A model generated the notes under the pieces. That model saw nothing but the letters and a program-made list of their open reading frames with translations, did no database searches and was not told the origin of the DNA. The position numbers and the translations under genes were made by a program. Positions 7,212-31,496 of a DNA stretch of 48,923 nucleotides are shown piece by piece; the stretch's first letter is position 1, and every line of letters starts with the position of its first letter. Source of the DNA: an uncultured Mucispirillum sp. (GTDB lineage: Bacteria > Chrysiogenota > Deferribacteres > Deferribacterales > Mucispirillaceae); contig CALUWI010000017.1 in NCBI GenBank assembly GCA_944324465.1, positions 1-48,923 of the forward strand, read 5' to 3'.

Positions 7212-7734
7212 ATCTTAACTCCCTCACTGCCTTTACACCTGCAAAAAGTCCAATCACTGCTCCAATATAGCCAAAAGCTATAATAGGGATTACCATATAA
7301 ACAATTTCCGGTGTTTCTCTCATTACTAAATAAGCAATAAATAATGAAAGCACTCTGTATGAAAAATCAAAAGCTGCAACACCAATAACTGCTGCATATT
7401 TTTTTGAAGCTCCACCTGAAATAAGAATAAAAAATTCGCCAATAAAAGATGCTAAAAACATACCTAATGCTGTAGATGCTTCTGCACCCATAAGTAATAA
7501 AGAGATAAGCATAGATACAAATGTAAAAAGTATCATAGTGCCTGATTTTTTTACTTTATAAAGCATAACTATAAAAAATGTAGTAAATATTAAATTTTTA
7601 ATAAGCAGAGTAACAGGGTTCATACCACCGCCAGCTAAAGCCACAACCATAGTTATTACTTTTGCAGCTGCAGCAAATACACCTATTGTTACAAGCTCTC
7701 CAATTGTCCAGTGATATTTTAGTTTTTTAAACAT
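7189..7734 (-). CDS. ECF transporter substrate-binding (S) component, MptD/Trep_Strep-like
   Basis: This small integral membrane protein (181 aa from the chosen start) has about five or six hydrophobic helices and the S-component opening WTIGELVTIGVFAAAAKVI. Its overall look, including GGGMNPVTLLIKNLIFT and the C-terminal GYIGAVIGLFAGVKAVRELRYAG, fits the MptD/Trep_Strep group of putative S components, whose substrates are not settled. An in-frame ATG at 7746 overlaps the stop codon of the receptor gene (TAATG), but GAGG sits 6 bases before the ATG at 7734, so I prefer the latter. The operon gives the best substrate clue: heme or a derivative. An ECF-like heme importer has been described in Lactobacillus sakei. 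Confidence 0.83.
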   Translation of the reverse strand: MFKKLKYHWTIGELVTIGVFAAAAKVITMVVALAGGGMNPVTLLIKNLIFTTFFIVMLYKVKKSGTMILFTFVSMLISLLLMGAEASTALGMFLASFIGEFFILISGGASKKYAAVIGVAAFDFSYRVLSLFIAYLVMRETPEIVYMVIPIIAFGYIGAVIGLFAGVKAVRELRYAGIVRS

Positions 7735-7745
7735 ATTTAGCCTCA

Positions 7746-9830
7746 TTAAAATTTAGCAGCAAATTTTACTGCCCCGTATATGCCTGGTTCATAAATATCA
7801 ACAGATGTTCTATAAAGCTCATTAAGAAGATTATATACTTCTGCTGATAAGCTGAACTGCCTTTCAGTGCCAAAATCTACACCAACAGCAAAATTTAATG
7901 TTCCCCATGGGTCATAATAAAGTCCATTTGCAAATTCCTTATGAACTGTATCTAAACTGTCCTTTACTTCGCTTGAAAATCTGCTGAATACATCTATTTT
8001 AAAATCTACAAAATCATTAAAAGTATGCTGATATATAACACCTGCTCTGCCTGAAACAAGTGGAACACCTGTATCCCATGTATTTATCTCGCCATCAGAG
8101 TATCTTCTTTGCATAATAGTTGTATTAATATAAGGCTTAATACCTATTGGTGATAAATATCCTATCTGTATTTCTGCACCATGGCTTAGTGCATTTGATA
8201 CATTTCTATATCTTGTAGCATTAACACCAGCACTTAAAGGCACCTGTGCAATATAATTATCTGCAATTGAAACAAAATATACAGTATCTATTGATACTCC
8301 ATAATCGCTGTATCTAATACCAAACTCTACATTATTGCTTGTTTCCGGCTTTAAATCTGGGTTTGGATAAATTGTGCCGCCACCCATGCTTGATAAAATA
8401 TATCTTTCCTGCAATGTAGGAGAACGAAAACCTTGTGAGTAATTTAGTCTAATACTTAAATTTTCTACCCCAGTCCATGTTATGCCTGCTGCAAATACTG
8501 GTGCATTAACTTGAGATGAGCCTGTTTCACCTAAATCAGCAGGAGTCAGTTGTTCTACTGTGCCATCATCATAAACTTGTGTTCCATCTGCAACCTGCAT
8601 ATTTGCATAGTTATATGTCCAGCGAACACCATAGTGAAGTGTAAAATCAAGTGGCAGATATGATTCCCCTTGTGCATATAATGCATGGGAATATTCATAT
8701 CCTTTATTTCTTGAATGTTTAAAATAACTCATAAGAGTCCATGACGGGTCATATGGGGTAGAATCTACATTTGTATCAGCTTCTAGTATATTATAATTAA
8801 ACTCATAACCTGCTATAATATATGTATGGTCTGAGACCTGCCAGTCAGTTTGCAGCTGCACTCCATATTGTGTATTATAATTATCTGCATAGTTATCAAT
8901 AATAGAAGGCATCCAAACAACATCTTGGTTAATATCTACATGATTTTGCATATCCTTATGGCTTTGCTGATAGAAAAAATCAATGCGTAATTTTGGCATA
9001 AAAGATGCGATATTTTTTGCTTCAAAAAAAAGAGCAGCTTTCTGTCTTGACCATTCAGGCATTTTTACAAAAAAGTTTTCATAGCCCGGAGACTGACTTC
9101 CTGAGGATATATCTGAATTAAAGTAATCATAACTTGCACCAACTTTATAATTCTGCATAAAATTATAAGCAAGATAAGCACTATAATTCTGCTGTTTAAA
9201 TGAAGAATATGGAACTAAGCCAATAGGTGTTCTAAGCTGTCCCTGTTCATTGTAAGATGCACTAATTCTGTAATCAAACCCTTTTACACTGCCATAAATT
9301 GAGCCAGATTCGCTGTGCCCTGCAGAAGCGCCGTTATATGCAAGACTTAATGAACCTTCTACTGGTTCTTTACCGCCTTTTTTTGTAATAATATTTATAA
9401 TACCACCAATTGCATTTGAACCATAAAGCACAGATGCTGGCCCCCTAATTACTTCTATTCGCTCTATTAAATTAGGGTCTATCATTAAAGCTGTTCCGTC
9501 CATTGATTTATTTTCCACAATCTGCTGGCCGTCTATTAATATTAATGTTCTATTAGCACCTTCGCCTCTTAATGATATTCGTTTAAGCCCCTGTCCACCG
9601 GAATTAATTACCTGAACACCGGGAATATCCTGCAAAAGTTCACCAACAGTTCTAGCAGATGACCGTTTTATATCATCTTCTGTAATAATAGAAACAGATG
9701 CAGGAACTTCTAAAAGCTCTTTTTCAATACGGGTGGCATTAACTTTTACAGCAGTAGTTTCTATATGCTCCTGTCCGTAGCTTATAGAGTAAAAAGTAAT
9801 AAATAGAAAAGTTAGTATAATCTTTTTCAT
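7746..9830 (-). CDS. TonB-dependent outer-membrane receptor, probably for heme
   Basis: The 694-residue protein starts with a Sec signal (MKKIILTFLFITFYSISYGQ), then a TonB-box-like stretch and a plug domain (about 30-150) with VPASVSIITEDDI, LLQDIPGV, LRGEGANRTLILIDG and IERIEVIRGPASVLYG. A 22-strand beta-barrel follows, ending in a C-terminal Phe. In the barrel, GFRSPTLQERY and NPDLKPETSNNVEFG match the FRAP and NPDL boxes that are typical of, but not exclusive to, heme/hemoglobin receptors. No His lies between these boxes, where heme receptors such as HemR carry a heme ligand; a Tyr is present instead. It starts 4 bases after hutW, which is the main reason for assigning heme. Confidence 0.86.
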   Translation of the reverse strand: MKKIILTFLFITFYSISYGQEHIETTAVKVNATRIEKELLEVPASVSIITEDDIKRSSARTVGELLQDIPGVQVINSGGQGLKRISLRGEGANRTLILIDGQQIVENKSMDGTALMIDPNLIERIEVIRGPASVLYGSNAIGGIINIITKKGGKEPVEGSLSLAYNGASAGHSESGSIYGSVKGFDYRISASYNEQGQLRTPIGLVPYSSFKQQNYSAYLAYNFMQNYKVGASYDYFNSDISSGSQSPGYENFFVKMPEWSRQKAALFFEAKNIASFMPKLRIDFFYQQSHKDMQNHVDINQDVVWMPSIIDNYADNYNTQYGVQLQTDWQVSDHTYIIAGYEFNYNILEADTNVDSTPYDPSWTLMSYFKHSRNKGYEYSHALYAQGESYLPLDFTLHYGVRWTYNYANMQVADGTQVYDDGTVEQLTPADLGETGSSQVNAPVFAAGITWTGVENLSIRLNYSQGFRSPTLQERYILSSMGGGTIYPNPDLKPETSNNVEFGIRYSDYGVSIDTVYFVSIADNYIAQVPLSAGVNATRYRNVSNALSHGAEIQIGYLSPIGIKPYINTTIMQRRYSDGEINTWDTGVPLVSGRAGVIYQHTFNDFVDFKIDVFSRFSSEVKDSLDTVHKEFANGLYYDPWGTLNFAVGVDFGTERQFSLSAEVYNLLNELYRTSVDIYEPGIYGAVKFAAKF

Positions 9831-9834
9831 ACTT

Positions 9835-11235
9835 TTATCCTGCTGTAACAGTCATACAAACATCTTTTTCATTAAACATCATAGTTAATTTTATAAATTC
9901 CTGTAAAAGCTGAGAAAGGTTTACAAACCAAAACTGACCTGCTTTTGTAAGTATAATTTTGCCAGACTGCTGCATAATTACACCTGCTTTTTCCCACTGG
10001 TCTAAAATATCTTTTGTCATAGATATAAGTGGATAATTATATTTATTTTCAAGTCTTTTTAAATCAAGCCAGCCGTTTTCAAAAGATTCTGCTATTTCTT
10101 TATATAAAGCATAATCTTTATCTGGAATACTTATACCCATAATAGGTTTTATGCCGTGATTTACTGCTTCTATATAGCCTTTATAGTCGCGAAGTATCAT
10201 ATAGCTGTAACCGTTAATATTGCCACCTGCTCCAGCTCCAAACGAAAGACAGCTGGCATATCCCCTTGCAAACTGATTATAAATATTTCTTTCTCTTGTA
10301 GTTCTCTGCCAGTGGTTAACACTTAATCTTCTGTATAATGCTTCTTCCATTAACTCTATACTTTTAAGGAAAAATTCTGTTTTAGTTTTAACATCTAATG
10401 CTGGGTTTATTGAGCCATCTGCTATACGCTTACCAAGTGGAGTATTAGGCAGTACATTAAGCTGATAACAGTCAAAGCCATCTAACTCTAAACTTTGCGC
10501 TGTCTTAATATCATCTACCCATATATCCATAGTCTGATTAGGAAAGCCGTATATTAAATCAAGCACTATTGCTGACTGGTTATAGCTTTTCATCATATTA
10601 ATTCTTTCTATAATAGTATCTCTATCGCTTCTTCTGCCCATAGAGCGTCTTAAATCTGTATTAAAACTCTGCACGCCAAGTGAAAACCTGTTTACACCAC
10701 CTTCTAAATATGCTTCTACTTTTTCTTTAGTCATATTAGATATTCTGCCTTCCATAGTTATTTCGCAGTCGTTTGCAAGAGGCAGAACTTCATGAACTGT
10801 TTTTAATATTCTTTTAATATCTTCTACTTCTAATGCAGTAGGAGTGCCGCCGCCAAAATAAAGAGCATTTACAGGCTTGCTGTTTAATGCTTTAGTATCT
10901 TTCCACAGCATAATTTCTTTAATTAAAGTATCAGTAAATATTCTGCTTTGCTCTTTTCTATATGGCTGGTTATAAAATCCACAATATAAACAGTGAGTTT
11001 CGCAGAAAGGCACATGAATATATGCTGCAGTTTTATTATTCCTTTCCTGCTTTAAAACTTCCTGAAGAATACTTTGAGTTTTTTCAGCAGGTGCAAATTT
11101 ATCCATAAGTCCTGCATGAACTGCTGTTTTTTTCTCAAACGCATTTACTATTACATTATCACTTTCATTAACAAAATATTTTGACATATTATCTTTTGGG
11201 TTAATAAGCTCCATACCCTTATGAAATGTTTCCAT
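9835..11235 (-). CDS. hutW: Anaerobilin synthase-type radical SAM methyltransferase HutW/ChuW
   Basis: Known members open the porphyrin ring of heme without oxygen by SAM-dependent radical methylation, releasing iron and a linear tetrapyrrole (anaerobilin). The 466-residue protein has the HemN-like core: C78, C82 and C85 in PFCETHCLYCGFYNQP bind the [4Fe-4S] cluster, YFGGGTPTAL is the SAM-binding strand, and RFSLGVQSFN and VLDLIYGFPNQT are further core motifs. HemN and HutW share these motifs; the ending LLQEFIKLTMMFNE and the operon with a HutX domain, a flavodoxin domain and a TonB receptor favour HutW. It is the first gene of the operon, preceded by AGGGG about 8 bases before ATG. Electrons would come from the flavodoxin domain encoded at 3664-4962. 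Confidence 0.88.
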   Translation of the reverse strand: METFHKGMELINPKDNMSKYFVNESDNVIVNAFEKKTAVHAGLMDKFAPAEKTQSILQEVLKQERNNKTAAYIHVPFCETHCLYCGFYNQPYRKEQSRIFTDTLIKEIMLWKDTKALNSKPVNALYFGGGTPTALEVEDIKRILKTVHEVLPLANDCEITMEGRISNMTKEKVEAYLEGGVNRFSLGVQSFNTDLRRSMGRRSDRDTIIERINMMKSYNQSAIVLDLIYGFPNQTMDIWVDDIKTAQSLELDGFDCYQLNVLPNTPLGKRIADGSINPALDVKTKTEFFLKSIELMEEALYRRLSVNHWQRTTRERNIYNQFARGYASCLSFGAGAGGNINGYSYMILRDYKGYIEAVNHGIKPIMGISIPDKDYALYKEIAESFENGWLDLKRLENKYNYPLISMTKDILDQWEKAGVIMQQSGKIILTKAGQFWFVNLSQLLQEFIKLTMMFNEKDVCMTVTAG

Positions 11236-13889: not shown

Positions 13890-14558
13890 CTATCTTAAAT
13901 AAAATGTTACAGGCACTTTTAATTCCACATTGCTTGCCATTTCATGACTTGCTACATAGCCTACTTTTTTAGCTGCTTTCAGGGCAGCATCCTGCAACAG
14001 CTTATTTGGAAAATCAAAGGCTTTTACTGAAACTATTGTACCTGTTTTATCTATTGCTATTAAAAGATAGCCAGAACCTTCTATTCCCAGTTTTTTTGCT
14101 CTTGGTGGGTAAATAATACGGTTGACTATTTCTTGATGTATCTGATTATAGTTTTGTTTTATATATGTTTCTGCCTGATTATTTGTTTTATTAACACCTG
14201 CAGCCTTAATTGCATCAGTATTTTCTTTTCGCACTTTATTTTCTTTTTTCTGTACAGTTTCTTTTTTTACAACCTGCTTTTTAGGGGCAGGTTCTTTTTT
14301 AACAAGTGCTTCTTTATGTATTTCTTCTTTTTTAACTATTTTCTGCTTTTCTTCCACCTTATTTTCTGATGTTTCATTTTGTTGTATTTCTTTAGAAAGC
14401 TGGGTATTTGCAGTCTGCTTCACTATTTCAAATGTAATAATATTTTCTTTTATAATATGTTCTTCTTTATTATAAAGCATAATAATACTGTGAAATAATA
14501 AAGATACAAATACAGTTACAGTAATTATACTGTTTTCTCTAATCCACTGCATAAACAT
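13890..14558 (-). CDS. Second TonB family protein (metal-uptake operon)
   Basis: The protein (222 aa from the chosen start) has an N-terminal membrane anchor (about 10-28), a strongly charged Lys/Glu linker (about 60-115, many KKE and KEE runs) and a C-terminal TonB domain (about 140-222) with YPPRAKKLGIEGSGYLLIAI, LLQDAALKAAKKVGY and a final VPVTFYLR strand. Several ATGs are available; GAGG lies 6 bases before the ATG at 14558, which I chose over 14570. The gene overlaps the end of the ABC ATPase gene, so it belongs to that operon. No exbB or exbD lies nearby, so it may borrow those encoded at 2656-3661. Its likely client is the receptor at 19492-21504. Confidence 0.85.
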   Translation of the reverse strand: MFMQWIRENSIITVTVFVSLLFHSIIMLYNKEEHIIKENIITFEIVKQTANTQLSKEIQQNETSENKVEEKQKIVKKEEIHKEALVKKEPAPKKQVVKKETVQKKENKVRKENTDAIKAAGVNKTNNQAETYIKQNYNQIHQEIVNRIIYPPRAKKLGIEGSGYLLIAIDKTGTIVSVKAFDFPNKLLQDAALKAAKKVGYVASHEMASNVELKVPVTFYLR

Positions 14559-15285
14559 ACCCTGCCTCATCTACTTTTACTTTGTATAATTCATAAAGCG
14601 ATGTATCGTTTAAAACATTACAAGCTAAACCGTCTTTATATATAAGCCCATTTTTCATTAAAACTGCCCTGCCGCCAAGGTATTTTACATGGTCTGGGTG
14701 ATGAGTAGTTATAATAAAAGTTAATCCTCTGCCAGCCATATTTTTTACACCATCTAACAGCCTGTACTGGTTACCATAATCAAGACTTGCAACAGGCTCA
14801 TCCATAAAGCAGTATTCAGAATTCTGTACTATTGCCCTTGCTACCATTACAAGCTGCCTTTCGCCGCCGCTAAGCCTTGAATAATCTCTTTCTTTTAAAT
14901 GTTCTATTTTTAATACAGAAAGTGCATAATCTACAGCTTCATAATCACTTGATGTATAGTTTTTCCAAAAACTGCCACTGCTTTTTCCCATAATCACTAC
15001 ATCTTTTACTGTATATGGAAATACTGCATGGTGGCTTTGCGGTACATAGCTTAAATATTTTGCCAGCTCTTTCCTGCTGATAGAATTAACTTCTCTGCCA
15101 TATATTTTTATACTGCCAGTTGTATATTTGTAAAAACCTAGTATTAATTTTAAAAGAGTTGATTTTCCACAGCCATTTGCACCTAAAATATTGACTATCT
15201 CCCCTTTGCCTATATTTAAGGTAATGCCTTTTAAAATATTTTCTGCTTTTGAGTAGCCAAATATTAAATTATTAACTTCTATCAT
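14539..15285 (-). CDS. ABC transporter ATPase, BtuD/FecE/MolC type
   Basis: This is the cytoplasmic motor of a type II importer. The 248-residue protein has Walker A GANGCGKST (about 37-45), a Q-loop VPQSHHAVFPYTVKDVVIMG, signature LSGGERQLV, Walker B CFMDEPVASLD and the switch His in TTHHPDHV. VPQ followed by PYTVKDVVIMGR-like sequence is characteristic of the siderophore/cobalamin/molybdate class. The ATG at 15285 shares one base with the permease stop (TAATG) and is preceded by GGGTGG, so I prefer it over a GTG nine bases upstream. The DNA end overlaps the second tonB. The substrate is discussed with the binding protein. Confidence 0.9.
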   Translation of the reverse strand: MIEVNNLIFGYSKAENILKGITLNIGKGEIVNILGANGCGKSTLLKLILGFYKYTTGSIKIYGREVNSISRKELAKYLSYVPQSHHAVFPYTVKDVVIMGKSSGSFWKNYTSSDYEAVDYALSVLKIEHLKERDYSRLSGGERQLVMVARAIVQNSEYCFMDEPVASLDYGNQYRLLDGVKNMAGRGLTFIITTHHPDHVKYLGGRAVLMKNGLIYKDGLACNVLNDTSLYELYKVKVDEAGYVYAVD

Positions 15286-16316
15286 TACCGCCACCCTTTA
15301 CCATTATTTTTTAATACTATAACAAATACTACTAAGCCTATTAAAGATGTAATAATACCCAGTGGTATTTCATAAGGAAATGCATTCCTTACAACATTAT
15401 CACATATTAATAAAAATAAACTGCCAAGTACTGCAGAAAGTACTAAAAGATACCTGTTATCAGGTCCTATTATCATTCTTGAAATATGTGGGATAATAAG
15501 CCCTACCCAGCCAATATTTCCAGCCATAACTACTGTTAATGATGCAAGTATTGTAGATATTATTAATACTATAATTTTATAAAACCCTGCATTTAAGCCG
15601 AGAGATTTTGCTTCTTCGTCGCTCATAGCAAGTATATTTAAAATCTTTCCAAAAAATAGTGATATAATAAGCACAATTAAAAGCGGAACACCTGCTTTTA
15701 CTAATGTGCCGTTACTGTCAACAACAGATAATGAACCCATAAGCCAGAAAACAATAGATGCAAGTTCATCATTATTAGGGTCTGCTGAGAGCTTTACTAT
15801 TGAAAGCAGAGCATTAAAAAAAGCACCGCTTATCATACCGCCTAAAATAAGCATTAATGAACTTGTGCTTCTATAAATAAAGGCAATAAATAATGCTAAA
15901 AATAATGCCAGCATACCAAATAATAATGTGGAAATCTGCACTAATGCCCAGCTTGAAAATGTAATAATACCAAATGCTGCTCCAAAAGATGCACCAGAAA
16001 GTACACCCATTATACCAGGAGAAACAAGTGGATTGGCAAATACACTTTGCAGCATAGCACCGCTTACACCAAGAGCTGCACCAATAACTAATGCACCTAT
16101 TATTCTTGGCAGACGGATTTGAAGTATTACTGTAGATATATTAGAAAGCCTTTCATCCTGTAAAATATCTGCACCAGTAACTATAGATTTAAGCCATACA
16201 AAAATATCTGTTAAACTGACTGCATATTTACCAAGCATCATAGATATAATAACTGCAGCAAAAAGTAATATCAAAAAGAAAAGAATTACAGCATATCTGC
16301 TTTTCTCTCTAAACAT
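15285..16316 (-). CDS. ABC transporter permease, BtuC/FecCD/MolB family
   Basis: The 343-residue, highly hydrophobic protein fits the 10-helix FecCD permease family. Clear family marks are IRLPRIIGALVIGAALGVSGAMLQSVFANPLVSPGIMGVLSGASFGA near residues 68-115 (quoted here by its ends), LMGSLSVVD, LGLNAGFYKI with the EEAKSLG coupling segment that contacts the ATPase, GWVGLIIPHISRMIIG and the C-terminal GIITSLIGLVVFVIVL. It should dimerise to form the inner-membrane channel. The stop codon overlaps the ATPase start by one base. The sequence type covers siderophores, cobalamin, heme and molybdate/tungstate, so it does not decide the cargo. Confidence 0.92.
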   Translation of the reverse strand: MFREKSRYAVILFFLILLFAAVIISMMLGKYAVSLTDIFVWLKSIVTGADILQDERLSNISTVILQIRLPRIIGALVIGAALGVSGAMLQSVFANPLVSPGIMGVLSGASFGAAFGIITFSSWALVQISTLLFGMLALFLALFIAFIYRSTSSLMLILGGMISGAFFNALLSIVKLSADPNNDELASIVFWLMGSLSVVDSNGTLVKAGVPLLIVLIISLFFGKILNILAMSDEEAKSLGLNAGFYKIIVLIISTILASLTVVMAGNIGWVGLIIPHISRMIIGPDNRYLLVLSAVLGSLFLLICDNVVRNAFPYEIPLGIITSLIGLVVFVIVLKNNGKGWR

Positions 16317-16325
16317 ATTTCCCCA

Positions 16326-16847
16326 TTATATATGATTTTTTATTTTCTCAGCATTTAATAATATATCATCATCAATATTAAGAACTTCTGCATGATTATT
16401 AAAAAACAGGCTGTTAATATCTTCAGCAAAATCATACCTGCATACAGCAGTAAGCACAGATTTTACAGGCATTTTATTAAATAATTCTGCAAAACCGCCG
16501 CCTTCAAGTTCCAATTTACCTATTTCATCAATAAAAATAATATCATTATTATTCAGTATTGATTTTTCATACTCTCTATATGCAAAATCAAAGCCTTTTT
16601 TATAAAAAGTAAAAGAGCCAAAGGAATAGTTTTCATTACCAGCACATTCATTTTTATCTGCAATAAGCTCTTTTTCATAAGTCAAAAGGGACTTAATAAA
16701 AAAACAATCTCTTTTTCCTTCCTTAAATGTGCCTTCGCATAAAAAACCGCCAGAACTAATACCATCAAAAGCAAGAATATCTTTCAAACTTGATGCATAA
16801 GTAGTTTTGCCGGCATGACGGGCACCTGTAATTATAAAATGCTTCAT
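16326..16847 (-). CDS. P-loop NTPase of THEP1 type
   Basis: The 173-residue protein has a Walker A motif near the start (GARHAGKTT, about 7-15), the FDGISSGGFLCEG strand typical of THEP1-like nucleoside triphosphatases, and Walker B IIFIDEIGKLEL (about 99-110). Such small NTPases hydrolyse NTPs in the cytosol; their physiological role is unclear. Similar P-loop proteins occur next to metal and molybdenum cofactor genes. Here it is embedded in a transporter operon, overlapping the binding-protein gene by 4 bases (ATGA) and lying 9 bases before the permease. It could be a regulator or an accessory to cofactor insertion. The family call is fairly safe; the role is inference. Confidence 0.78.
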   Translation of the reverse strand: MKHFIITGARHAGKTTYASSLKDILAFDGISSGGFLCEGTFKEGKRDCFFIKSLLTYEKELIADKNECAGNENYSFGSFTFYKKGFDFAYREYEKSILNNNDIIFIDEIGKLELEGGGFAELFNKMPVKSVLTAVCRYDFAEDINSLFFNNHAEVLNIDDDILLNAEKIKNHI

Positions 16848-17851
16848 TTGTAATATTTCTCGTAATTTATAAGCCTTTCTGCCATATCATAACTTAAGTC
16901 GTAATGAAAAAATAACTTTATATGCTCCATTAATTCCTTGTGCAAATCTATATCTGCATATTCTGGATAAAGTTTTGATGCAAGATACTGTATAACAAAA
17001 TATTCCATAACAGTTTTCTTTTCCACCCAGCTAAAAGGTTCTTCTGGCACAAAAAGTATATTATTATTTTTTACAGCTTTTATTTTTGCCCATTTTTTAT
17101 CTTTTTTAATATACTCATAAGCTGCTTTTTTACCTATAACTATCACATCAGGGTTATATATGATTAACTGCTCAATAGATATTGTTTCATCAAGCACACT
17201 GCACTTATGCACATATTCTGCACCTGCCAAAATAAGAGAATCAACACATCTTGTTTTTAACCCATTATCGCCAAGTGCTAAATATACCCTTTTCTTATTT
17301 TGCACCCTATCTGTAATTTTTTTAGTATTTTCTATGCTTTTTATGATATATTTATTGATTTCTTCGCTTCTTTTTTCATTATTAAATATTTTACCTAAAA
17401 GGCTGTATATTTTAATATCATCATTAATGGTAGTGCCTTGAATAGATACAAAAGGAATATTGATAGATGCCATATACTCTTTCATTTTATTTATTTCTTT
17501 TTTAGTCTTGCTGCCATCTGCAGCAACAGCAAAAGCTGCATCTATTTTATTTGATAAAAGTACTTCTTTATGGGGATAGTTTCCATTCCCATACCAGCCG
17601 CCTAAAACTTGAAGGTTTTGATACTTTTCTGGTATATATCTTTTCTCGTGGCTGTATAGTGGTGTGTTCCAGCCAGCAATAATATCTGCATCAAAAGAAT
17701 AAAGCATAAAAGTTGTTGGCACTGTAGCTCCCATTACTTTTGACTTATTATCAAGCCTTAAATCTTGTGAAATATCTGCTTCAAAAGTATATCCATTAAA
17801 AGCAGAAAATAATATAAATATGCTTAAAAATAACACCCTTATATATGCCAT
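16844..17851 (-). CDS. Periplasmic substrate-binding protein of a BtuF/FecB/MolA-type importer
   Basis: The protein (335 aa) starts with a Sec signal (MAYIRVLFLSIFILFSAFNGY) and shows the class III binding-protein layout: an N-lobe with VMGATVPTTFMLYSFDADIIAGWN and VLGGWYGNGN, a long backbone helix (NNEKRSEEINKYIIKSIENT), and a C-lobe with RVYLALGDNGLKT, YNPDVIVIGKK and VPEEPFSWVEKK. An in-frame GTG 12 bases upstream exists, but the ATG at 17851 directly starts the signal peptide. It is the first gene of the five-gene operon. In Haemophilus influenzae MolA, a protein of this fold binds molybdate/tungstate; the FmdE neighbour and ModE-like boxes make that cargo plausible here. Iron chelates, cobalamin or nickel remain alternatives. 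Confidence 0.88.
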   Translation of the reverse strand: MAYIRVLFLSIFILFSAFNGYTFEADISQDLRLDNKSKVMGATVPTTFMLYSFDADIIAGWNTPLYSHEKRYIPEKYQNLQVLGGWYGNGNYPHKEVLLSNKIDAAFAVAADGSKTKKEINKMKEYMASINIPFVSIQGTTINDDIKIYSLLGKIFNNEKRSEEINKYIIKSIENTKKITDRVQNKKRVYLALGDNGLKTRCVDSLILAGAEYVHKCSVLDETISIEQLIIYNPDVIVIGKKAAYEYIKKDKKWAKIKAVKNNNILFVPEEPFSWVEKKTVMEYFVIQYLASKLYPEYADIDLHKELMEHIKLFFHYDLSYDMAERLINYEKYYK

Positions 17852-17944
17852 AACTACCACCACTCTATTTCATTATATAATACTATATATAATAGAGAAT
17901 AGAAATTCAAGTATATTTTATAATATTTAATAATAATTTTTATA

Positions 17945-17972
17945 TTCGTTATATATTTTATTATATATTAAA
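17945..17972. promoter_or_regulatory. ModE-like operator upstream of the binding-protein gene
   Basis: TTCGTTATATA, six bases, then TATATATTAAA. The left half matches the ModE half site ATCGTTATATA at 10 of 11 positions and the right half matches TATATAACGAT at 7 of 11, with the spacer length known for ModE. It lies about 95 bases upstream of the start at 17851. Composition bias makes the TATATA part cheap; the CGTTATATA core is the informative part. Confidence 0.45.
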
Positions 17973-18077
17973 ACTCACCACTAAAAGCTATGCTGTAAGT
18001 TCTGAAAGTTATAAAAATATTAAAACAGCATAATTGGCATATAAAAACATCTATTTAACTACAATAAATCTATATAC

Positions 18078-18109: not shown

Positions 18110-18176
18110 TATTTGATTTTACTAAAAAATAAGTGTATATTATATTGTTAACTATATAATGCAAGAAAGGTGTAAG

Positions 18177-18731
18177 ATGGTAACTTACGAAGAAGATTTA
18201 GAAAAAGCTGCAGCTTATCACGGTCATTTATGCAGCGGCCAAATCCTTGGCGTTAGAATGGCAAGACTTGGTTTAGAAGTTATGGGACTTGCTGACAGAG
18301 ACCCTAAAAAAATGCGTGATTTGCTTGTATTTGTAGAATCAGACAGATGTGCAACAGATGCTGCCTATGTGGTAACTGGTGCAACTATGGGCAGAAGAAG
18401 AATGAAATACAAAGATTACGGTAAAATGGCTATGTCTTTTTATTACATTCCTACAAAAAAAGCTGTGAGAATTAAACCTATTAATGAAGACAGACCACCA
18501 GAAGGGGCAGACTTAAAAGAATTCTGGGCAAAATATACTGATGAAGAACTTTTTAAATGGGAAAATGTAGAAATCATTGTTGATGAAAATGATTTGCCAG
18601 GTAAACCAAGAGACCATGCAGTATGCTGCATATGCGGCGAAAGAATATTAGACGGCAGGCAGGTAGAAGTTAACGGCGAAATAAAATGCAGAGCATGTGC
18701 TAACGGTGCATATTATAAAGTAATAGACTAA
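18177..18731 (+). CDS. FmdE-like protein with C-terminal zinc finger
   Basis: FmdE was first seen as a gene product linked to molybdenum formylmethanofuran dehydrogenase; its biochemical role is not settled. The protein (184 aa) has the family motif AAYHGHLCSGQILGVRMA (about residues 10-27; His and Cys are likely metal ligands), VESDRCATDAAYVVTGATMG, and a C-terminal zinc-ribbon-like module with CCICGERI and CRACANGAYY. I chose ATG 18177 over an in-frame ATG 18 bases upstream because AAAGG lies 6 bases before it. It is divergent from the ABC operon and 8 bases ahead of a DUF364 gene. It probably serves metal or molybdopterin-metal handling in the cytoplasm; that is inference from family and context. 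Confidence 0.85.
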   Translation: MVTYEEDLEKAAAYHGHLCSGQILGVRMARLGLEVMGLADRDPKKMRDLLVFVESDRCATDAAYVVTGATMGRRRMKYKDYGKMAMSFYYIPTKKAVRIKPINEDRPPEGADLKEFWAKYTDEELFKWENVEIIVDENDLPGKPRDHAVCCICGERILDGRQVEVNGEIKCRACANGAYYKVID

Positions 18732-18739
18732 GGTGCAAA

Positions 18740-19495
18740 ATGGATAAATGGAAAGTATATGATGAATTAATAGAAAATATTGAAGATAATTACAGTGTGG
18801 AATACTGCTTTGTAAGCCCTCACTGGGTTGGAGTTAAAAGCCAAATGGGGCTTGGGCTTGCTATGCGTATGTCTGATAGCCCTATAGTTACAAAACTTAC
18901 TGGTAATATGAAAGGAATGAAGTTAAAAGATTTGGCAGCTTATGCAAAATCATGGGATTTTCATGAAGCATCTATCGGTATGGCTGCTCTTAACTCATAT
19001 TATAACGGGAAAAATAACAACTCTCTTAAAAATATTAATGAAAGCACATCTAATTTAAGTATTTTTGACTTAATAAAAGATAAAGTGCAGGGTAAAAAAG
19101 TAACTATTGTAGGTCATTTTCCAAATATTGAAAAATTAAGAGAAATATGCCAGTTAACTATTTTAGAGCGTAAGCCTGATTTAGCAAGGTTTGATTTACC
19201 AGACCCAGCATGTGAATATGTTTTACCTGAGCAGGATTATCTTTTTACTACAGCAGTTACTTTAATAAATAAAACTCTGCCAAGGCTTTTAGAACTTTCA
19301 AAAAATGCTAAAACTTATCTTGTAGGTCCAACAACTCCACTTACTGATATTATGATAAACTACGGCATAGAATGTCTTTCAGGCTCTATTGTACTGGAAG
19401 AAGAAAAAGCAAAAGATTTATTTTTAGAAGGTGCAATACTGCAGGCTGTTATTAAAAATAAATACATTAAAATGGTTAATATTTTAAAACCTTAA
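18740..19495 (+). CDS. DUF364 family protein (putative heavy-metal chelation)
   Basis: The 251-residue protein fits the DUF4213-DUF364 family. The N-terminal third (about 1-95) has WVGVKSQMGLGLAMRM, and KDLAAYAKSWDFHEASIGMAALNSYYN, the usual DUF4213 features. The second part is Rossmann-like: VTIVGHFPNIEKLREIC, LERKP, LPEQDYLFTTAVTLINKTLPRLLEL, and YLVGPTTPLTDIM. Family members are proposed to bind heavy metals or a metal chelate; none of this is proven in detail. AGGTG precedes the ATG, 8 bases after the FmdE gene, so the two are one operon. Its last 4 bases overlap the end of the convergent receptor gene. It likely processes whatever the adjacent transporter imports. Confidence 0.82.
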   Translation: MDKWKVYDELIENIEDNYSVEYCFVSPHWVGVKSQMGLGLAMRMSDSPIVTKLTGNMKGMKLKDLAAYAKSWDFHEASIGMAALNSYYNGKNNNSLKNINESTSNLSIFDLIKDKVQGKKVTIVGHFPNIEKLREICQLTILERKPDLARFDLPDPACEYVLPEQDYLFTTAVTLINKTLPRLLELSKNAKTYLVGPTTPLTDIMINYGIECLSGSIVLEEEKAKDLFLEGAILQAVIKNKYIKMVNILKP

Positions 19496-21504
19496 ATTTT
19501 AGCTGTTAAAGACAAGGTATAGCTTCTACCCTTTAATGGGTAGTGCTGCCTTGTTTCATATAAAGTATCTGTAATATTTCTTACTGCAAAATCTATCTGA
19601 AAATGCTCGTTTATGAAAAAATTAACATTTAAATGTGCCAAAAAATAACCATCTAATTTATTTATACCATAAATATCTGCATACCTTGATGTGTTATATT
19701 CCACAACTGGAGTTATTGCAATATACTCACATGGTGTGATTTTTATATATGCTTTACCTGTAAAAAGCGGATAATATGTCATCACTTCTGCTTTTGACTG
19801 GCTTTTATCTATGTTGTAAGCATTAACTGATAAATTTATCCCAAGTTCTGCATAATCTAAAATGTAAATATTTGATAAAAGCTCAAAGCCGTATAATGAT
19901 ACTTTATCTAAATTCATAAGATAATCAACCTGAGTAGCAGGCAGAACTGGGTTTGGAACACGCATAACCACCATTTTATCTGATACACTGCTGTAATATA
20001 AAGCTGATTCAATATAGAGCATATTAAATAATGACCCTTTATATCCAAGCTCCACATGGTCTGCTGTTTCCGGCTTTAAGTTAGGGTTTGGCAGATTTTC
20101 CCCAAGCTGTGTAGAATACCTGTCACTCATTGTAGGAAACTGGTTTCTTCTTGCATATGTTAAGTATAAATTATTATCATCAATAAATTCATAAAATATA
20201 CCAAGCTGACCTGCAAATAAAAACCTGTTTGCTGCATCTACATTGTATGATGATAAACCGAGTTTATTATTAAAACTGTTTTCTTTACTGTAAAAATTAG
20301 ATGGTACTAAGCCGTCAAACCCTAATGTTCCAGAAATTGTAAGTCTGTCTAAGGGCTTATAATCATATTCTACACCAAAAGACATCTTGTTTTCTGTAAC
20401 ATTTATATCTTCTTCTGTGCCTAAACTGTCTTCGCTGTAACCAATATGATTATCCTGCCTGTAAGTAATGGCTGATTTTATAATATGTTCATCTGTAATA
20501 TCATAACTGCCGTTTATACTGAATCCTGCAGCATATTCATCATATATGCTTGTACGGTATGGTGAATCATAATCAACATGAATAAGGCTTGAATACATAC
20601 TCATAGAATTATCATAAGTATCATAAAAAGCTAAAAAGTTCAGCTTTAATTTATTTTTATCATATTTTCCATGCAGGGATACACTTTGATGATAATCATA
20701 ATTCCAGCCCCATAATGAATATACAGAGCTGACTTCTGGGCTTACCATTCCTTTATCTACATCGCTGTAAATATATGTAAGCCATATATCAAGGCCATCA
20801 ATTGGTGTTGTACCTGCTATTAATGTATTTTTTATATCATTTCTGTCAGAAAAAAGTCTGTTTCTGTCTTTTTGAATACTTCCCTGCATAGGCTTATAAC
20901 TTTTTGGAAGCAGGTAATGGTCTATCTCTCTGTACTGCAGAGTATATTTAAAGTAAAACTTAGAAGTTTTAGAACCAATGCTTACAATATTATAAACTGA
21001 TGAAAAATCAAAATTATCATCATTTTCTATGGTTGTTTTAACAAATCCTTCAAACTTTTCTTTTGGTTTTGCAAGAGTTAAAAGTACTGCTCCGCCCATA
21101 CCATTATTACCAGAAAGCATAGATGAATAACCTTTCTGTACTGTAACAGATTCTGTATCACCTAAAAGCATAGATGCACTGTCACCTAACCCATTATACG
21201 GGTTTAATGTAGATATACCGTCTATTATTACAGGTATTGCAGAGCTTGAAAACCCTCTTATTTTAAATGTGGTATCCCCTCTTGCTCCACCCTCATCAAG
21301 CATAACGCCGGGGCTGAATGTTAATGCATCAGATAATGAATATACATTCATATTCTGTAAATCTTCCTGCATTATAGTCTGACCTTTCTCTTTTGTTTTA
21401 GTATCTGTAACGATAATAGTATCAGTTTCCACCTGCTCAACATCTTCTGCATAGCTGATACCAAAAGCAAAAATAATAAAACAAAAAATAAAGTATTTTG
21501 TCAT
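19492..21504 (-). CDS. TonB-dependent outer-membrane receptor, probable metal or metal-chelate
   Basis: The 670-residue protein has a signal peptide (about 1-19), a plug domain (about 25-145) with MNVYSLSDALTFSPGVML, FKIRGFSSSAIPVIIDGISTL and ESVTVQKGYSSMLSGNNGMGG, and a beta-barrel with NPNLKPETADHVELGYKG and a C-terminal YTLSLTAKI strand. This is the BtuB/FepA-like layout. It is preceded on the same strand by an FN3 lipoprotein gene and flanked by the ABC/TonB and FmdE/DUF364 genes, so I assign it to that uptake system. GGAG lies 5 bases before the ATG, squeezed just behind a strong hairpin at 21516-21544. Cobalamin or siderophore receptors are alternatives; no cobalamin riboswitch was seen. 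Confidence 0.86.
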   Translation of the reverse strand: MTKYFIFCFIIFAFGISYAEDVEQVETDTIIVTDTKTKEKGQTIMQEDLQNMNVYSLSDALTFSPGVMLDEGGARGDTTFKIRGFSSSAIPVIIDGISTLNPYNGLGDSASMLLGDTESVTVQKGYSSMLSGNNGMGGAVLLTLAKPKEKFEGFVKTTIENDDNFDFSSVYNIVSIGSKTSKFYFKYTLQYREIDHYLLPKSYKPMQGSIQKDRNRLFSDRNDIKNTLIAGTTPIDGLDIWLTYIYSDVDKGMVSPEVSSVYSLWGWNYDYHQSVSLHGKYDKNKLKLNFLAFYDTYDNSMSMYSSLIHVDYDSPYRTSIYDEYAAGFSINGSYDITDEHIIKSAITYRQDNHIGYSEDSLGTEEDINVTENKMSFGVEYDYKPLDRLTISGTLGFDGLVPSNFYSKENSFNNKLGLSSYNVDAANRFLFAGQLGIFYEFIDDNNLYLTYARRNQFPTMSDRYSTQLGENLPNPNLKPETADHVELGYKGSLFNMLYIESALYYSSVSDKMVVMRVPNPVLPATQVDYLMNLDKVSLYGFELLSNIYILDYAELGINLSVNAYNIDKSQSKAEVMTYYPLFTGKAYIKITPCEYIAITPVVEYNTSRYADIYGINKLDGYFLAHLNVNFFINEHFQIDFAVRNITDTLYETRQHYPLKGRSYTLSLTAKI

Positions 21505-21562: not shown

Positions 21563-23773
21563 TTAATTTCCTGCATTAAAATCATTTGCAGTATTTCCAG
21601 GCACTCCGCCATACAATTTTATTCTGCCGTCTAAATATGGGGAAATGCTGTTTTTATATGCAATATATTCTGCAACAGCTTTAAGCATTGTAACAGGCTG
21701 ATTATTTTCATCTAATACTGGAGTTACTGTTTTGCCTAAAAATGCTACATACATTTCTTTTGCAGTTTTAGTTGTTGTAATAACTGTATACTGTTTATCA
21801 CCTGCTACTGCCTGACCGTTAATTAATAAACTGCCTTGCTGAATTCTGCCTCTTTTATACCCCATAACACTTGTTTCTGTAGGGTTGCCTGATTCTGGGT
21901 TAGCCTGTTCGTAAGTTAAAAGATAACAGCCTTTAGGGTCATTAACAGCATCATATAAAGCACCAGTTTCGCTGTCTATCCCTGTAGATTTATTAACAGT
22001 TGCACAGTTTGTATCAAACCTTGTATTAAATTCATCAATACTGTATGGCAGATATTCTATTGCATAGCGTACTTCACTTGATGGTAAACCCCACCATTTG
22101 CCGTTATATGTTGTGCCGCCTGAACCGCCGTAATGGTTATTTCTGTAAACTGATGCAGCCTGCCCAAAAAGTGTTTTTGTATATGGGTTTGAGCTGTCCC
22201 CTACTGCTGGATATAAATTTAAATCAAGGCTGTAATCTGCATCTATAATTAAATCTGAGCCGTTTAATGTTACATAAACTAATGTGTCATCTAAATAATC
22301 AGAAGTAATTACAGTTTGTAAAAATGCTGGTGTAATAGTCTGGTTTGCTTGTATTCCCTGACCTATCATATCACCTATAAGCCATGCAAAATCTGGGTTT
22401 ATATCAGTCATTTCTGAACCATACCATTTTACTGCATCTGCAAACATATTGCCCAGAGCTGTTTCTTTACCACGAACTAATCTGTCAGTATTTGGTCTGC
22501 CACCTGCATTAAAGTTTGTACTTATTCGCCAGAAATCACTGTGCGGCACATCTTCTGCATATATAAAATCACCTGCTGCTGTACCTAAATACTGGTTTAA
22601 GTCATTTAAATCAATTGGAGTATATACAGGTGTAACACTTACAGCATCACTTTCTATCCATACTCCATTTGTGCTTGAATTTGCCGCACGAAGTTTAATG
22701 TAATATGTCATATCATTTTCAAGGCCGCTTATAATAGATGATGCCTTGTCTTGAGTATATGGAATAGATGAATCTATCCATGTATAATTTGTGCCATCAA
22801 GAGAATATCCTGCCTGATAATCTGATACAGAAGCATCTCCAAAAGACACTGTATTAAATGAAAACTCTGCCCTTTTATTTTTGCCATGCATACTGCTGCT
22901 TTCTATTACTGGTTTTGCTGGAGCCTGAACAGCAGCTTTTCCCTGCATAAGTGCTTTATCTTCTGCTGAGGAAAAAATATCTTTTCCAAACACTTTCCAT
23001 GTACTTACACTATCAGCATCTAAAAAGCCGTTTGCATTATGGGAAACTATACATACTGTATGATTTGAGCCCTCATATAAATCAGTATTATTTGCAAGTT
23101 CTATAATATAATGGTCAGAATTTAAAGAAAAAGCCGGAGTCCATTTGTTATACTGCCCTGCTTTTGACGGACAGTCATCAATATGCACTGCATAAAGCTC
23201 ACCCTGTTTTTTAGTCCATGAAATACGAAGATGTTTATCTCCCTGCTGAACTTGTACATTTTCAATCTGACTTGGTAATGGTATTGGTGTAGATTTTACA
23301 GAAGTATAATTAGACTGACCATATCCGCATCTTGCAAAATTAGACCTTATCCATATAGTATATTCCACATTATCCTGTAAATCAGCATAATATAAAAATG
23401 GAAACCCTTCTGCACTGTCTGCTTCGCTTTGAGATTTTTTTACAGCAAACCTTATAAGCAGACTATCATTTGGTTCAACTGTGCCTAAGTCTAATGCATT
23501 ATTAATATTATCATCTTTACCTATCTTAACATCATAATAAGGAAGACATGCATCCGTTTCTTCTGCACCTATTCCACTTACTCTGTTAAACTGAACAGTA
23601 ATTCTTTCATGAAGTGCTGTTGGTGAAACATCTAAAGGATAATAAGATGAAACATCAAGACCGCCATTGCCTGATGATTTACTGTCCTGTTCACTGCAGG
23701 CAGCAAGCAATGCCGTCATCATTATAAGTAAAAATAAAATTTTTACATTGGCTAAAGAGAAATTCTTTTTCAT
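21563..23773 (-). CDS. Lipoprotein with FN3 domains and 5'-nucleotidase C-terminal-like domain
   Basis: The 736-residue protein has a lipoprotein signal (lipobox LLAAC, Cys at about 26). Two fibronectin type III-like regions follow (about 165-265 and 285-385; e.g. IENVQVQQGDKHLRISWTKK and SGLENDMTYYIKLRAANS). Residues about 425-725 resemble the C-terminal domain of periplasmic 5'-nucleotidases: ALGNMFADAVKWYG, PDFAWLIGDMIGQGI, LDDTLVYVTLNGSDLI, and YTVITTTKTAKEMY. The N-terminal metallophosphatase domain that normally carries the active site is missing, so nucleotidase activity is unlikely; ligand binding is more likely. It is the gene directly before the TonB receptor and has ModE-like boxes upstream, suggesting a surface or periplasmic helper of the receptor. 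Confidence 0.78.
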   Translation of the reverse strand: MKKNFSLANVKILFLLIMMTALLAACSEQDSKSSGNGGLDVSSYYPLDVSPTALHERITVQFNRVSGIGAEETDACLPYYDVKIGKDDNINNALDLGTVEPNDSLLIRFAVKKSQSEADSAEGFPFLYYADLQDNVEYTIWIRSNFARCGYGQSNYTSVKSTPIPLPSQIENVQVQQGDKHLRISWTKKQGELYAVHIDDCPSKAGQYNKWTPAFSLNSDHYIIELANNTDLYEGSNHTVCIVSHNANGFLDADSVSTWKVFGKDIFSSAEDKALMQGKAAVQAPAKPVIESSSMHGKNKRAEFSFNTVSFGDASVSDYQAGYSLDGTNYTWIDSSIPYTQDKASSIISGLENDMTYYIKLRAANSSTNGVWIESDAVSVTPVYTPIDLNDLNQYLGTAAGDFIYAEDVPHSDFWRISTNFNAGGRPNTDRLVRGKETALGNMFADAVKWYGSEMTDINPDFAWLIGDMIGQGIQANQTITPAFLQTVITSDYLDDTLVYVTLNGSDLIIDADYSLDLNLYPAVGDSSNPYTKTLFGQAASVYRNNHYGGSGGTTYNGKWWGLPSSEVRYAIEYLPYSIDEFNTRFDTNCATVNKSTGIDSETGALYDAVNDPKGCYLLTYEQANPESGNPTETSVMGYKRGRIQQGSLLINGQAVAGDKQYTVITTTKTAKEMYVAFLGKTVTPVLDENNQPVTMLKAVAEYIAYKNSISPYLDGRIKLYGGVPGNTANDFNAGN

Positions 23774-23794: not shown

Positions 23795-23822
23795 ATCGTT
23801 ATATTTATTAATATATAATAAA
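23795..23822. promoter_or_regulatory. ModE-like operator upstream of the FN3 lipoprotein gene
   Basis: ATCGTTATATT, six bases, TATATAATAAA. The left half matches the ModE half site ATCGTTATATA at 10 of 11 positions, the right half matches TATATAACGAT at 8 of 11, and the spacer fits. It begins 22 bases before the lipoprotein start, a position where a bound repressor would block transcription. Confidence 0.5.
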
Positions 23823-23860
23823 ATAAAAGTCAATAATTAATTATATCAATAATATTAACA

Positions 23861-23887
23861 ATCGTTATTATTTTTTTATATAATGAA
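23861..23887. promoter_or_regulatory. Second ModE-like sequence in the same control region
   Basis: ATCGTTATTAT, five bases, TATATAATGAA. The ATCGTTAT octamer repeats that of the site at 23795 and the right half matches TATATAACGAT at 9 of 11 positions. The 317-base gap 23774-24090 holds both sites and the divergent promoter of the DcuC-like gene; I see no gene in it. Confidence 0.4.
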
Positions 23888-29660: not shown

Positions 29661-31496
29661 TTATTTTATATTTGGTTTATATCCTGCATTTTCAGGAGAT
29701 GATACACAAAGATATGGCCGCGTATCTGCTAATCTAAGACCATTTAAACGCAGAGGGTCTATGAGTGCATCTTCATTATTGCTGCATAATTTACTATTTT
29801 TAACTATTACCCACGCATGGTCAAATTCCTCACCACCATGGTTTCCAAAGCCTGTTGAATAATTTGCTTTTCCTTCAACATAAGCACACTGATAGTCTGA
29901 AGATATCTGGCATGCAAAAGCAAATAACCGTGCAAGCCCTTTTGCATTAAAACTTCCTGTTATTGCACCTGTGATATCACTGGCACCATTTGCATCATAT
30001 ACCACAAAGTTATCAATAAGAGCCCAAAGATATCGGTTAAGTAAATCTTCAAATTTATCTGTTTTACCATCAGTATAGTCCCAAATATCACGATATACTT
30101 TTTCCTGAATCTGTTTCATTTGGCTGGCCCACTGTTCTTTTACTGCACTATCACTGCTAAATGAAGAAACAGGCTGTATTTTATAGTAATTTAATATATC
30201 ATATTTTGTATTACTAACTTGTCCACCAGCTTTAAAAAGATATAAATTACTTAAATCCAGCATCAGCTTTTCTTCAATTGATTTAAGAGCACTGTTAGTT
30301 AAACCATTTTGAACATTTAAAAGACTAACAGGAACACCAACTGTGTTTTTGTAAAGCCACTCTGCATATAGAGAATTATATCTTTCATGTCCACAAACTG
30401 GTTGTCCAAAAAGTGCTCCTTCAAAAACCACATTTATCCTAGGTTCTCCAGTTTCAGGATAAATACAGTATTCTTCAGCCCAAAGTTTATATTGGTCTAT
30501 CCAAGAAGTATAAGCACATACTCCATTCCAGTTACCAGTTTCCATATCATCTATACAATTGTATTTATATTTATCAGGATCGGTATCAGTTTCTATAAAA
30601 CCATCAGTAGCTCCACATAAAACACCGTCTGTACATGGCTCCACTTCCACTGGCACAGTATTTCTTCCATAAAATGATTTAAATGTATCGTATAACCTGT
30701 CATAAACTGCTTTTTCAGATGCAGATAAAGTAGACCTGTAATAGAGATTATCCCTGTTAATATAATCAAAAATAGTATCTGTATATTTAGGTGCTTCTTT
30801 GTCTTCTTCATTTCCACCTGGAACTACTACAACACTTACAACTTCACTGCCGCTTTCATCACCACCGCCTGGAACTACTACAACATCTACAACTTCACTA
30901 CCGCTTTCATTACCGCTTTCATCACCGCCTGGGTTCACTACAATATCTACAATTCCACTGCCGCTTTCGTCACCGCTTTCATTACTGCCTGTGTCTGCTG
31001 GGTCAGTAGATGTGCCGCTTTCGTCACTGCCTGGGTTTACTGGGTCGGTAGATGTGCCGCTTTCATCACTGCCTGTGTCTGCTGGGTCGGTAGATGTGCC
31101 GCTTTCGTCACTGCCTGGGTTTACTGGGTCGGTAGATGTGCCGCTTTCGTCACTGCCTGGGTTTACTGGGTCGGTAGATGTGCCGCTTTCATCACTGCCT
31201 GGGTTTACTGGGTCGGTAGATGTGCCGCTTTCGTCACTGCCTGTATTTACTGGGTCGGTAGATGTGCCAGTATCGTCACTGCCTGTATTTACTGTGTCTG
31301 CTGGGTTTGTGGTTGAGCCACCTGTGCTGCCTGAATTATCTCCATCTGGATTAGGTGTTATATCCCCTCCCCCGATGCCTGCTGTTGCTTGACTTGATGT
31401 TTGGTCAGAATTAATATTACTTGGAGTTGAAGAATTATCATCACCGCAGGAAGATAAAACAAGCATGAATGGGATTAAGAAAATTAACTTTTTCAT
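29661..31496 (-). CDS. Large lipoprotein with 14-residue repeats and a transglutaminase-like C-terminus
   Basis: The 611-residue protein has a lipoprotein signal (MKKLIFLIPFMLVLSSCGDD, Cys17). Residues about 72-169 are seven copies of a 14-residue repeat of the type GSDESGTSTDPVNP, then Gly/Ser/Glu/Val-rich repeats to about 235. The rest is globular with several Cys, and near the end GLARLFAFACQISSDYQCAYVEGKA ... HAWVIVKNSKL ... LIDPLRLNGL (quoted in pieces) resembles the Cys-His-Asp core of transglutaminase-like domains. The residue at the usual nucleophile position appears to be Ala, so activity is doubtful. Signal and repeat length match the truncated gene at 1-306. Probably an envelope or surface protein with a flexible stalk; function unknown. 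Confidence 0.78.
   Translation of the reverse strand: MKKLIFLIPFMLVLSSCGDDNSSTPSNINSDQTSSQATAGIGGGDITPNPDGDNSGSTGGSTTNPADTVNTGSDDTGTSTDPVNTGSDESGTSTDPVNPGSDESGTSTDPVNPGSDESGTSTDPVNPGSDESGTSTDPADTGSDESGTSTDPVNPGSDESGTSTDPADTGSNESGDESGSGIVDIVVNPGGDESGNESGSEVVDVVVVPGGGDESGSEVVSVVVVPGGNEEDKEAPKYTDTIFDYINRDNLYYRSTLSASEKAVYDRLYDTFKSFYGRNTVPVEVEPCTDGVLCGATDGFIETDTDPDKYKYNCIDDMETGNWNGVCAYTSWIDQYKLWAEEYCIYPETGEPRINVVFEGALFGQPVCGHERYNSLYAEWLYKNTVGVPVSLLNVQNGLTNSALKSIEEKLMLDLSNLYLFKAGGQVSNTKYDILNYYKIQPVSSFSSDSAVKEQWASQMKQIQEKVYRDIWDYTDGKTDKFEDLLNRYLWALIDNFVVYDANGASDITGAITGSFNAKGLARLFAFACQISSDYQCAYVEGKANYSTGFGNHGGEEFDHAWVIVKNSKLCSNNEDALIDPLRLNGLRLADTRPYLCVSSPENAGYKPNIK

Follow-up and report, generated by a model that had tools for sequence, protein, structure and literature searches.

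In front of the gene for a receptor-linked lipoprotein of an uncultured Mucispirillum species lie two pairs of repeated half sites, which raises the question of what regulator reads them and what the genes behind them take up. The pairs, ATCGTTATATT-(TATTAA)-TATATAATAAA and ATCGTTATTAT-(TTTTT)-TATATAATGAA, are found in a 48,923-nucleotide contig that was analysed over its whole length (the window). Read directly from the sequence, the first starts at position 23795, the second ends at 23887 and the separation is 66 bases; both octamers and both palindromes are exactly where a preliminary description had placed them. The octamer ATCGTTAT has exactly two copies in the window against 0.76 expected, and at least two copies are also obtained in 20 of 100 shuffles, so that the octamer count by itself is weak evidence. 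In a genome-wide search the octamer paired with TATATAA at a distance of 6–10 bases occurs twice in the 2.42-Mb genome, both times here, and the reversed control once.

The same description had ascribed to both palindromes roughly the spacing of ModE operators, which is correct for only one of them. The printed ModE consensus is ATCGNTATATA-N6-TATATANCGAT (PMC545781), and the pattern that we scanned was the 24-bp palindrome CGnTATATA-N6-TATATAnCG. The upstream region contains the following elements:

23797–23820, no strand: operator 1, a 24-bp ModE-type palindrome, CGTTATATT-N6-TATATAATA, with mismatches at 3 of 18 consensus positions
23828–23833, minus strand: putative −35 element of the lipoprotein gene, TTGACT, read from the sequence
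23863–23885, no strand: palindrome 2, CGTTATTAT-N5-TATATAATG, 23 bp, departing from the ModE geometry

Operator 1 has the expected arrangement (9+6+9), whereas palindrome 2 is one base shorter (9+5+9; spacer of 5, 23 bp in total) and does not match as a 24-bp site. The latter lies between TTAACA and TATAAT, a promoter-like pair on the plus strand (23855–23884) that faces DcuC, and its half-site is kept in four of the five Mucispirillum rows of an alignment of lipoprotein upstream regions. Operator 1 is positioned 23 bp 5' of the lipoprotein start codon, over the lipoprotein promoter. With a 17-bp spacer from TTGACT, the presumed −10 element (TAATAA, 23805–23810) falls within the operator, an overlap that fits repression by ModE-molybdate. 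In the same alignment operator 1 and the adjoining TTGACT, which is common to this genome and three relatives (G008, G009 and G002), form one conserved block.

The lipoprotein gene belongs to a locus whose genes were assigned by Pfam profile searches:

13890–14570, minus strand: TonB (TonB_C, 8.1e-9)
14539–15294, minus strand: ABC ATPase
15285–16316, minus strand: FecCD-type permease, nearest solved relative MolB HI1471 (2nq2, 2.7e-59)
16326–16847, minus strand: NTPase_1 (THEP1-type) P-loop protein
16844–17863, minus strand: periplasmic binding protein (PBP) of the MolA/BtuF type (Peripla_BP_2; PDB 4pag, 1.7e-37; MolA HI1472, 3.8e-9)
18159–18731, plus strand: FmdE-family protein
18740–19495, plus strand: DUF4213/DUF364 'putative heavy-metal chelation' protein
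19492–21504, minus strand: TonB-dependent receptor, second gene of the lipoprotein operon (plug PF07715, 5.9e-18; barrel PF00593, 4.8e-26)
21563–23773, minus strand: lipoprotein of 736 aa with a lipobox-like LLAACS, fn3 domains and a C-terminal part related to the 5'-nucleotidase C-terminal domain

Both plug and barrel domains are present in the receptor, as is characteristic of TonB-dependent receptors. Compared by sequence with solved structures, the permease resembles MolB more than BtuC, FhuB or HmuU, the runner-up being FhuB (9.9e-45), some 14 orders of magnitude in E-value behind; MolA is only the third match of the binding protein. The nearest NCBIfam models for the permease and the binding protein are those for siderophores, B12, heme and iron, all far under their cut-offs. 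Control of the locus by a riboswitch was considered and rejected, since no Rfam match was found in the leader: the search of the window and of two further loci (L044, L045) returned only a tRNA and no riboswitch or Moco RNA motif.

Palindromes of 24 bp with at most three mismatches occur three times in the window (at 17871, 17947 and 23797), all within the two intergenic regions of the locus; shuffled windows contain 0.37 on average and none of 100 contained three. A scoring matrix was then trained on 24 modA- or modE-adjacent sites from other genomes, with this genome and all lipoprotein and receptor sites left out. Operator 1 obtained the highest score of the 48.9-kb window (13.95; shuffling the 250-bp upstream region 2000 times gave such a score once) and positions 17947–17970 the second highest (11.81, 5 of 2000 shuffles). 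The best score among the eleven other intergenic regions longer than 80 bp was 7.7, and the upstream regions that served as controls, those of DcuC, of the TonB-dependent receptor of the locus and of a heme-type receptor of the window, contain no ModE-type site.

The second-ranking site accounts for the related TTCGTTAT that had been pointed out at the other end of the locus. This sequence is indeed present at 17945, within CGTTATATA-N6-TATATATTA, and starts a palindrome of the right length. The intergenic region contains:

17871–17894, no strand: weak ModE-like palindrome, CATTATATAATACTATATATAATA, adjoining the binding-protein start, with 3 mismatches and a matrix score of 6.3
17947–17970, no strand: operator 3, CGTTATATA-N6-TATATATTA, between the binding-protein operon and FmdE, with mismatches at 3 of 18 positions
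17968–18006, minus strand: 3'-terminal stump of a second TonB-dependent receptor gene, ending in FRTYSIAFSGEF before the stop codon, against GRTYSIAFSGEF in G009

The stump, which operator 3 directly adjoins, lies between FmdE and the binding protein and is 90% identical to G009 over 67 bp and 91% identical to G008 over 96 bp. The second receptor has been deleted here; relatives retain the receptor and extra lipoprotein copies before the binding-protein operon (L149, L176).

Two further features of the window lie outside this locus. A separate heme-type locus occupies positions 4978–11235; it encodes a radical-SAM ChuW/HutW protein (493 bits against a cut-off of 400), a TonB receptor of the heme type and an ECF-like transporter made up of CbiQ, Trep_Strep and an ABC ATPase with two domains. 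A lipoprotein-like open reading frame with a long Ser/Asp/Pro/Gly tandem-repeat stretch is located at 29661–31496.

The genome encodes a full-length ModE with a helix-turn-helix (HTH) and two TOBE domains (99.6 bits, cut-off 98.5). It is the only protein above the TIGR00637 cut-off, with nothing else close, and it aligns with E. coli ModE over nearly the whole length, the recognition-helix stretch being near-identical. The best consensus match of the genome, with a single mismatch, lies 112 bp before modA of modABC; the sites are thus not scattered at random without a tie to Mo/W genes, and the shared Mo/W regulon suggested earlier is supported. No site was found upstream of modE in this genome (best matrix score 0.99). 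Four 3-mismatch sites lie elsewhere in the genome (one each on contigs C3 and C8, two on C10; matrix scores 4.9–9.8), three of them inside reading frames (L004, L006, L007) and the fourth (L005) just before a frame without evident Mo link.

The expectation of sites ahead of molybdopterin-enzyme genes held for one of 12 molybdopterin-oxidoreductase loci, a dmsA-like gene (L227, score 15.2); the other 11 have no good site (9.0 in L230, 7.6 in L231, at most 4.9 in the remainder), and the tie of the sites to Mo enzymes is therefore weaker in this genome. The L227 site is also found in G003, the two sequences being too alike to inform. At the dmsA-like gene (L227 3522–3660, contig C1) the site precedes a promoter-like TTGACT box, as would suit an activator. 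A run of nine G separates an upstream ATG from a Tat-type frame and counts ten G in G003, which makes phase variation of this gene possible.

In order to follow the sites beyond this genome, 59 genomes were compared. The lipoprotein is present in 11 of them, nine of which also encode ModE. All nine carry a site 9–34 bp before the lipoprotein start, at scores reached by 0–4 of 2000 shuffles; neither of the two ModE-less genomes does, their best matches being ordinary (257 and 1362 of 2000). A site upstream of the PBP, conserved with operator 3, is present in all five ModE-bearing genomes tested (5–15 of 2000 shuffles), the one in G008 being weak (6.8). Orthologues of the lipoprotein, the PBP and the DUF364 protein are absent together from five Mucispirillum genomes (G001, G003, G005, G006 and G007): the locus is present or absent as a unit. 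Most of the additional lipoprotein copies in relatives have no site (best scores −0.9 to 5.1 in L025, L027, L028, L035, L037 and L040; 9.8 in L026). In G024 (L153) the genes for the lipoprotein, receptor, NTPase_1, binding protein, permease and ATPase follow one another in a single same-strand row, suggesting that lipoprotein, receptor and ABC importer are parts of one system.

Sites with at most two mismatches number 67 in the 59 genomes. The 34 genomes with a ModE match (any match at 1e-3, TOBE-only matches included) contain 63 of them against 22 in the control, and the 25 ModE-negative genomes contain four against two. In the Mucispirillum genomes (G000–G009, G000 being the present one) the sites do not exceed the reversed control (10 versus 16), which speaks against the use of site counts in that genus; the other ModE-bearing genomes have 53 sites versus 6. 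The surroundings were read for 63 of the 67 sites, four sites of G032 being left out. Twenty precede modA, seven modE, five the lipoprotein, four a second ModA-like binding protein (one checked by Pfam) and three a TonB receptor, the site in G040 (L164) overlapping the 5' end of the longest frame; one each precedes mobB (G031), a molybdoenzyme of the DMSO-reductase type (G039), exbB of exbB-tonB (G019), an NTPase_1 fusion and a 5'-nucleotidase. Of the other 19, some stand before Tat-exported redox proteins, phosphonate-type binding proteins or HD-domain sensors, and the rest have nothing clear behind them. In genera other than Mucispirillum, lipoprotein–receptor operons follow such sites in G037, G042 and G043, and a second kind of receptor, then an NTPase_1 fusion, in G019, G038 and G040; NTPase_1 fusions recur in ModE-site operons of relatives. 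The two receptor lineages are about 23% identical. It therefore appears, from these predicted sites, that TonB-dependent transport belongs to the ModE regulon of the phylum in at least two receptor lineages.

Other genes were seen behind these sites. Tat-type proteins start 20–23 bp after sites with 0–2 mismatches in five genomes (L111, L155, L156, L159, L160); the two scanned (L111, L155) belong to a C_GCAxxG_C_C family, and in the three loci mapped (L111, L155, L159) two further same-strand genes follow. Proteins of 786–791 aa start 167–182 bp after 1-mismatch sites in G042 (L121, an HD-domain sensor by Pfam) and G037 (L124).

Taken as a whole, the repeats are probably ModE operators ahead of a TonB-dependent locus for the uptake of molybdenum and/or tungsten. 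Weak points of this prediction are that the window's own sites are degenerate, each with mismatches at 3 of 18 positions, and that palindrome 2, which may or may not serve ModE, has the wrong length. AT-rich promoter DNA might resemble a ModE site by chance, the more so as the regions upstream of the lipoprotein and the PBP have only 12–17% G+C and the genus has no more sites than the control. Yet none of the 100 shuffles yielded three such sites, the genomes split nine of nine against none of two by the presence of ModE, operator 1 lies in a conserved alignment block and in another family (G037, G043) near-perfect sites stand before the homologous operon, all of which renders coincidence very unlikely. 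It is very improbable that the sites are read by a different, ModE-like or TunR-like regulator. Short, HTH-only ModE proteins do exist in relatives (G019, G020, G027), but the single TIGR00637 match of the present genome leaves no such candidate near the cut-off, and the motif printed for the Desulfovibrio mod operon, CGGTCACG-N14-CGTGACCG, differs.

The sites could also be ModE operators of a locus whose cargo is something else that cells happen to require under Mo shortage, such as heme, B12 or a ferric chelate. The receptor and ABC importer families are general ones, the best NCBIfam models, albeit sub-threshold, are for siderophores, heme and B12, and heme genes (HutW and the heme-type receptor, 7746–11235) occupy the same window. 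That heme-type receptor, however, has no ModE-type site, FmdE and DUF364 proteins are neighbours of the importer, the PBP and permease genes travel with the lipoprotein–receptor pair in L153, and the permease is nearest to MolB, far ahead of FhuB; a different cargo is accordingly unlikely. MolA of Haemophilus influenzae binds both molybdate and tungstate, and MolBC-A is a type II ABC importer for them (PMC4031551). Given the affinity of the permease to MolB, a Mo or W species is therefore the likeliest substrate by analogy.

For Mo/W uptake under ModE control, regulation could proceed as follows. With Mo or W plentiful, ModE-molybdate would bind both promoters and block them, at operator 1 through the −10 region of the lipoprotein–receptor promoter and at operator 3 through the promoter of the binding-protein, permease, ATPase and TonB operon. 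When the metals run low, the cell would add to the usual modABC the lipoprotein, the outer-membrane receptor, TonB and the MolBC-A-like ABC importer.

The match of the lipoprotein to 5_nucleotid_C is partial and below the cut-off (22.0 versus 23.6 bits; 79 bits for the G037 homologue), although six of seven family members match at E≤0.001, one of them also matching SusE. A metallophosphoesterase catalytic domain (Metallophos) was not found in it by Pfam, and its identification as a 5'-nucleotidase was rejected on these two grounds. The predicted structure has a mean pLDDT of 60, with values under 50 over long parts of the C-terminal half. Among named organisms, the lipoprotein locus has its nearest relatives in Mucispirillum and other Deferribacterota; a search of 383 genomes with the G037 lipoprotein gave 26 matching genomes at 1e-8, of which the 16 from outside the order are partial matches. 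One could speculate, doubtful as this is, that the surface lipoprotein is a substrate-binding domain derived from a 5'-nucleotidase, with the catalytic half lost, and would catch an organic Mo/W species (e.g. a pterin-nucleotide cofactor or a catecholate complex) rather than bare molybdate for the TonB receptor, as part of a dedicated, ModE-controlled outer-membrane route in Deferribacterota. Such a role would be in keeping with the complete 5'-nucleotidase that G019 (L112) has behind a ModE-type site.

Molybdate and tungstate are usually taken to pass the outer membrane through porins. No publication tying ModE to a TonB-dependent receptor was found in a literature search that did not cover the work of Studholme and Pau from 2003, reportedly the principal earlier compilation of such sites. 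Neither 'molybd' nor 'tungst' gives a match in a review of TonB substrates from 2024 (PMC11658791), which is weak evidence since nickel and zinc are also unmatched. The present data suggest import of Mo/W across the outer membrane by a TonB-powered receptor in this bacterial group. If true, a ModE-controlled TonB receptor would mean active outer-membrane import of these metals, probably as a complex, in some anaerobes; bacteria whose respiration uses many molybdoenzymes, for which this genome has 12 loci, would have reason for it.

TonB-dependent uptake of metallophores and B12 (BtuB-BtuFCD, FhuA-FhuBCD) combines a receptor, TonB and a type II ABC importer. The locus has the same layout and differs in its ModE-type operators and in having no riboswitch detected by Rfam. 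The lipoprotein shares fn3 domains and a 5_nucleotid_C-like part with 5'-nucleotidase C-terminal domain proteins and SusE-like surface lipoproteins; unlike 5'-nucleotidases, it has no catalytic metallophosphoesterase domain detectable by Pfam. With MolBC-A (PMC4031551) the locus has in common a FecCD-type permease nearest to solved MolB and a binding protein that matches MolA; to these the locus, whose Mo/W substrate is presumed, adds an outer-membrane receptor, a lipoprotein, TonB and NTPase_1. The closest parallel in regulation is the ModE-modABC regulon (E. coli consensus; modDABC site of Geobacter sulfurreducens, PMC545781): the 24-bp palindrome consensus and spacing are the same, a full-length ModE is present and modABC lies under the best site. 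The ModE targets named in that source are mod operons only, whereas here they would extend to a lipoprotein, TonB-dependent receptors and the TonB machinery.
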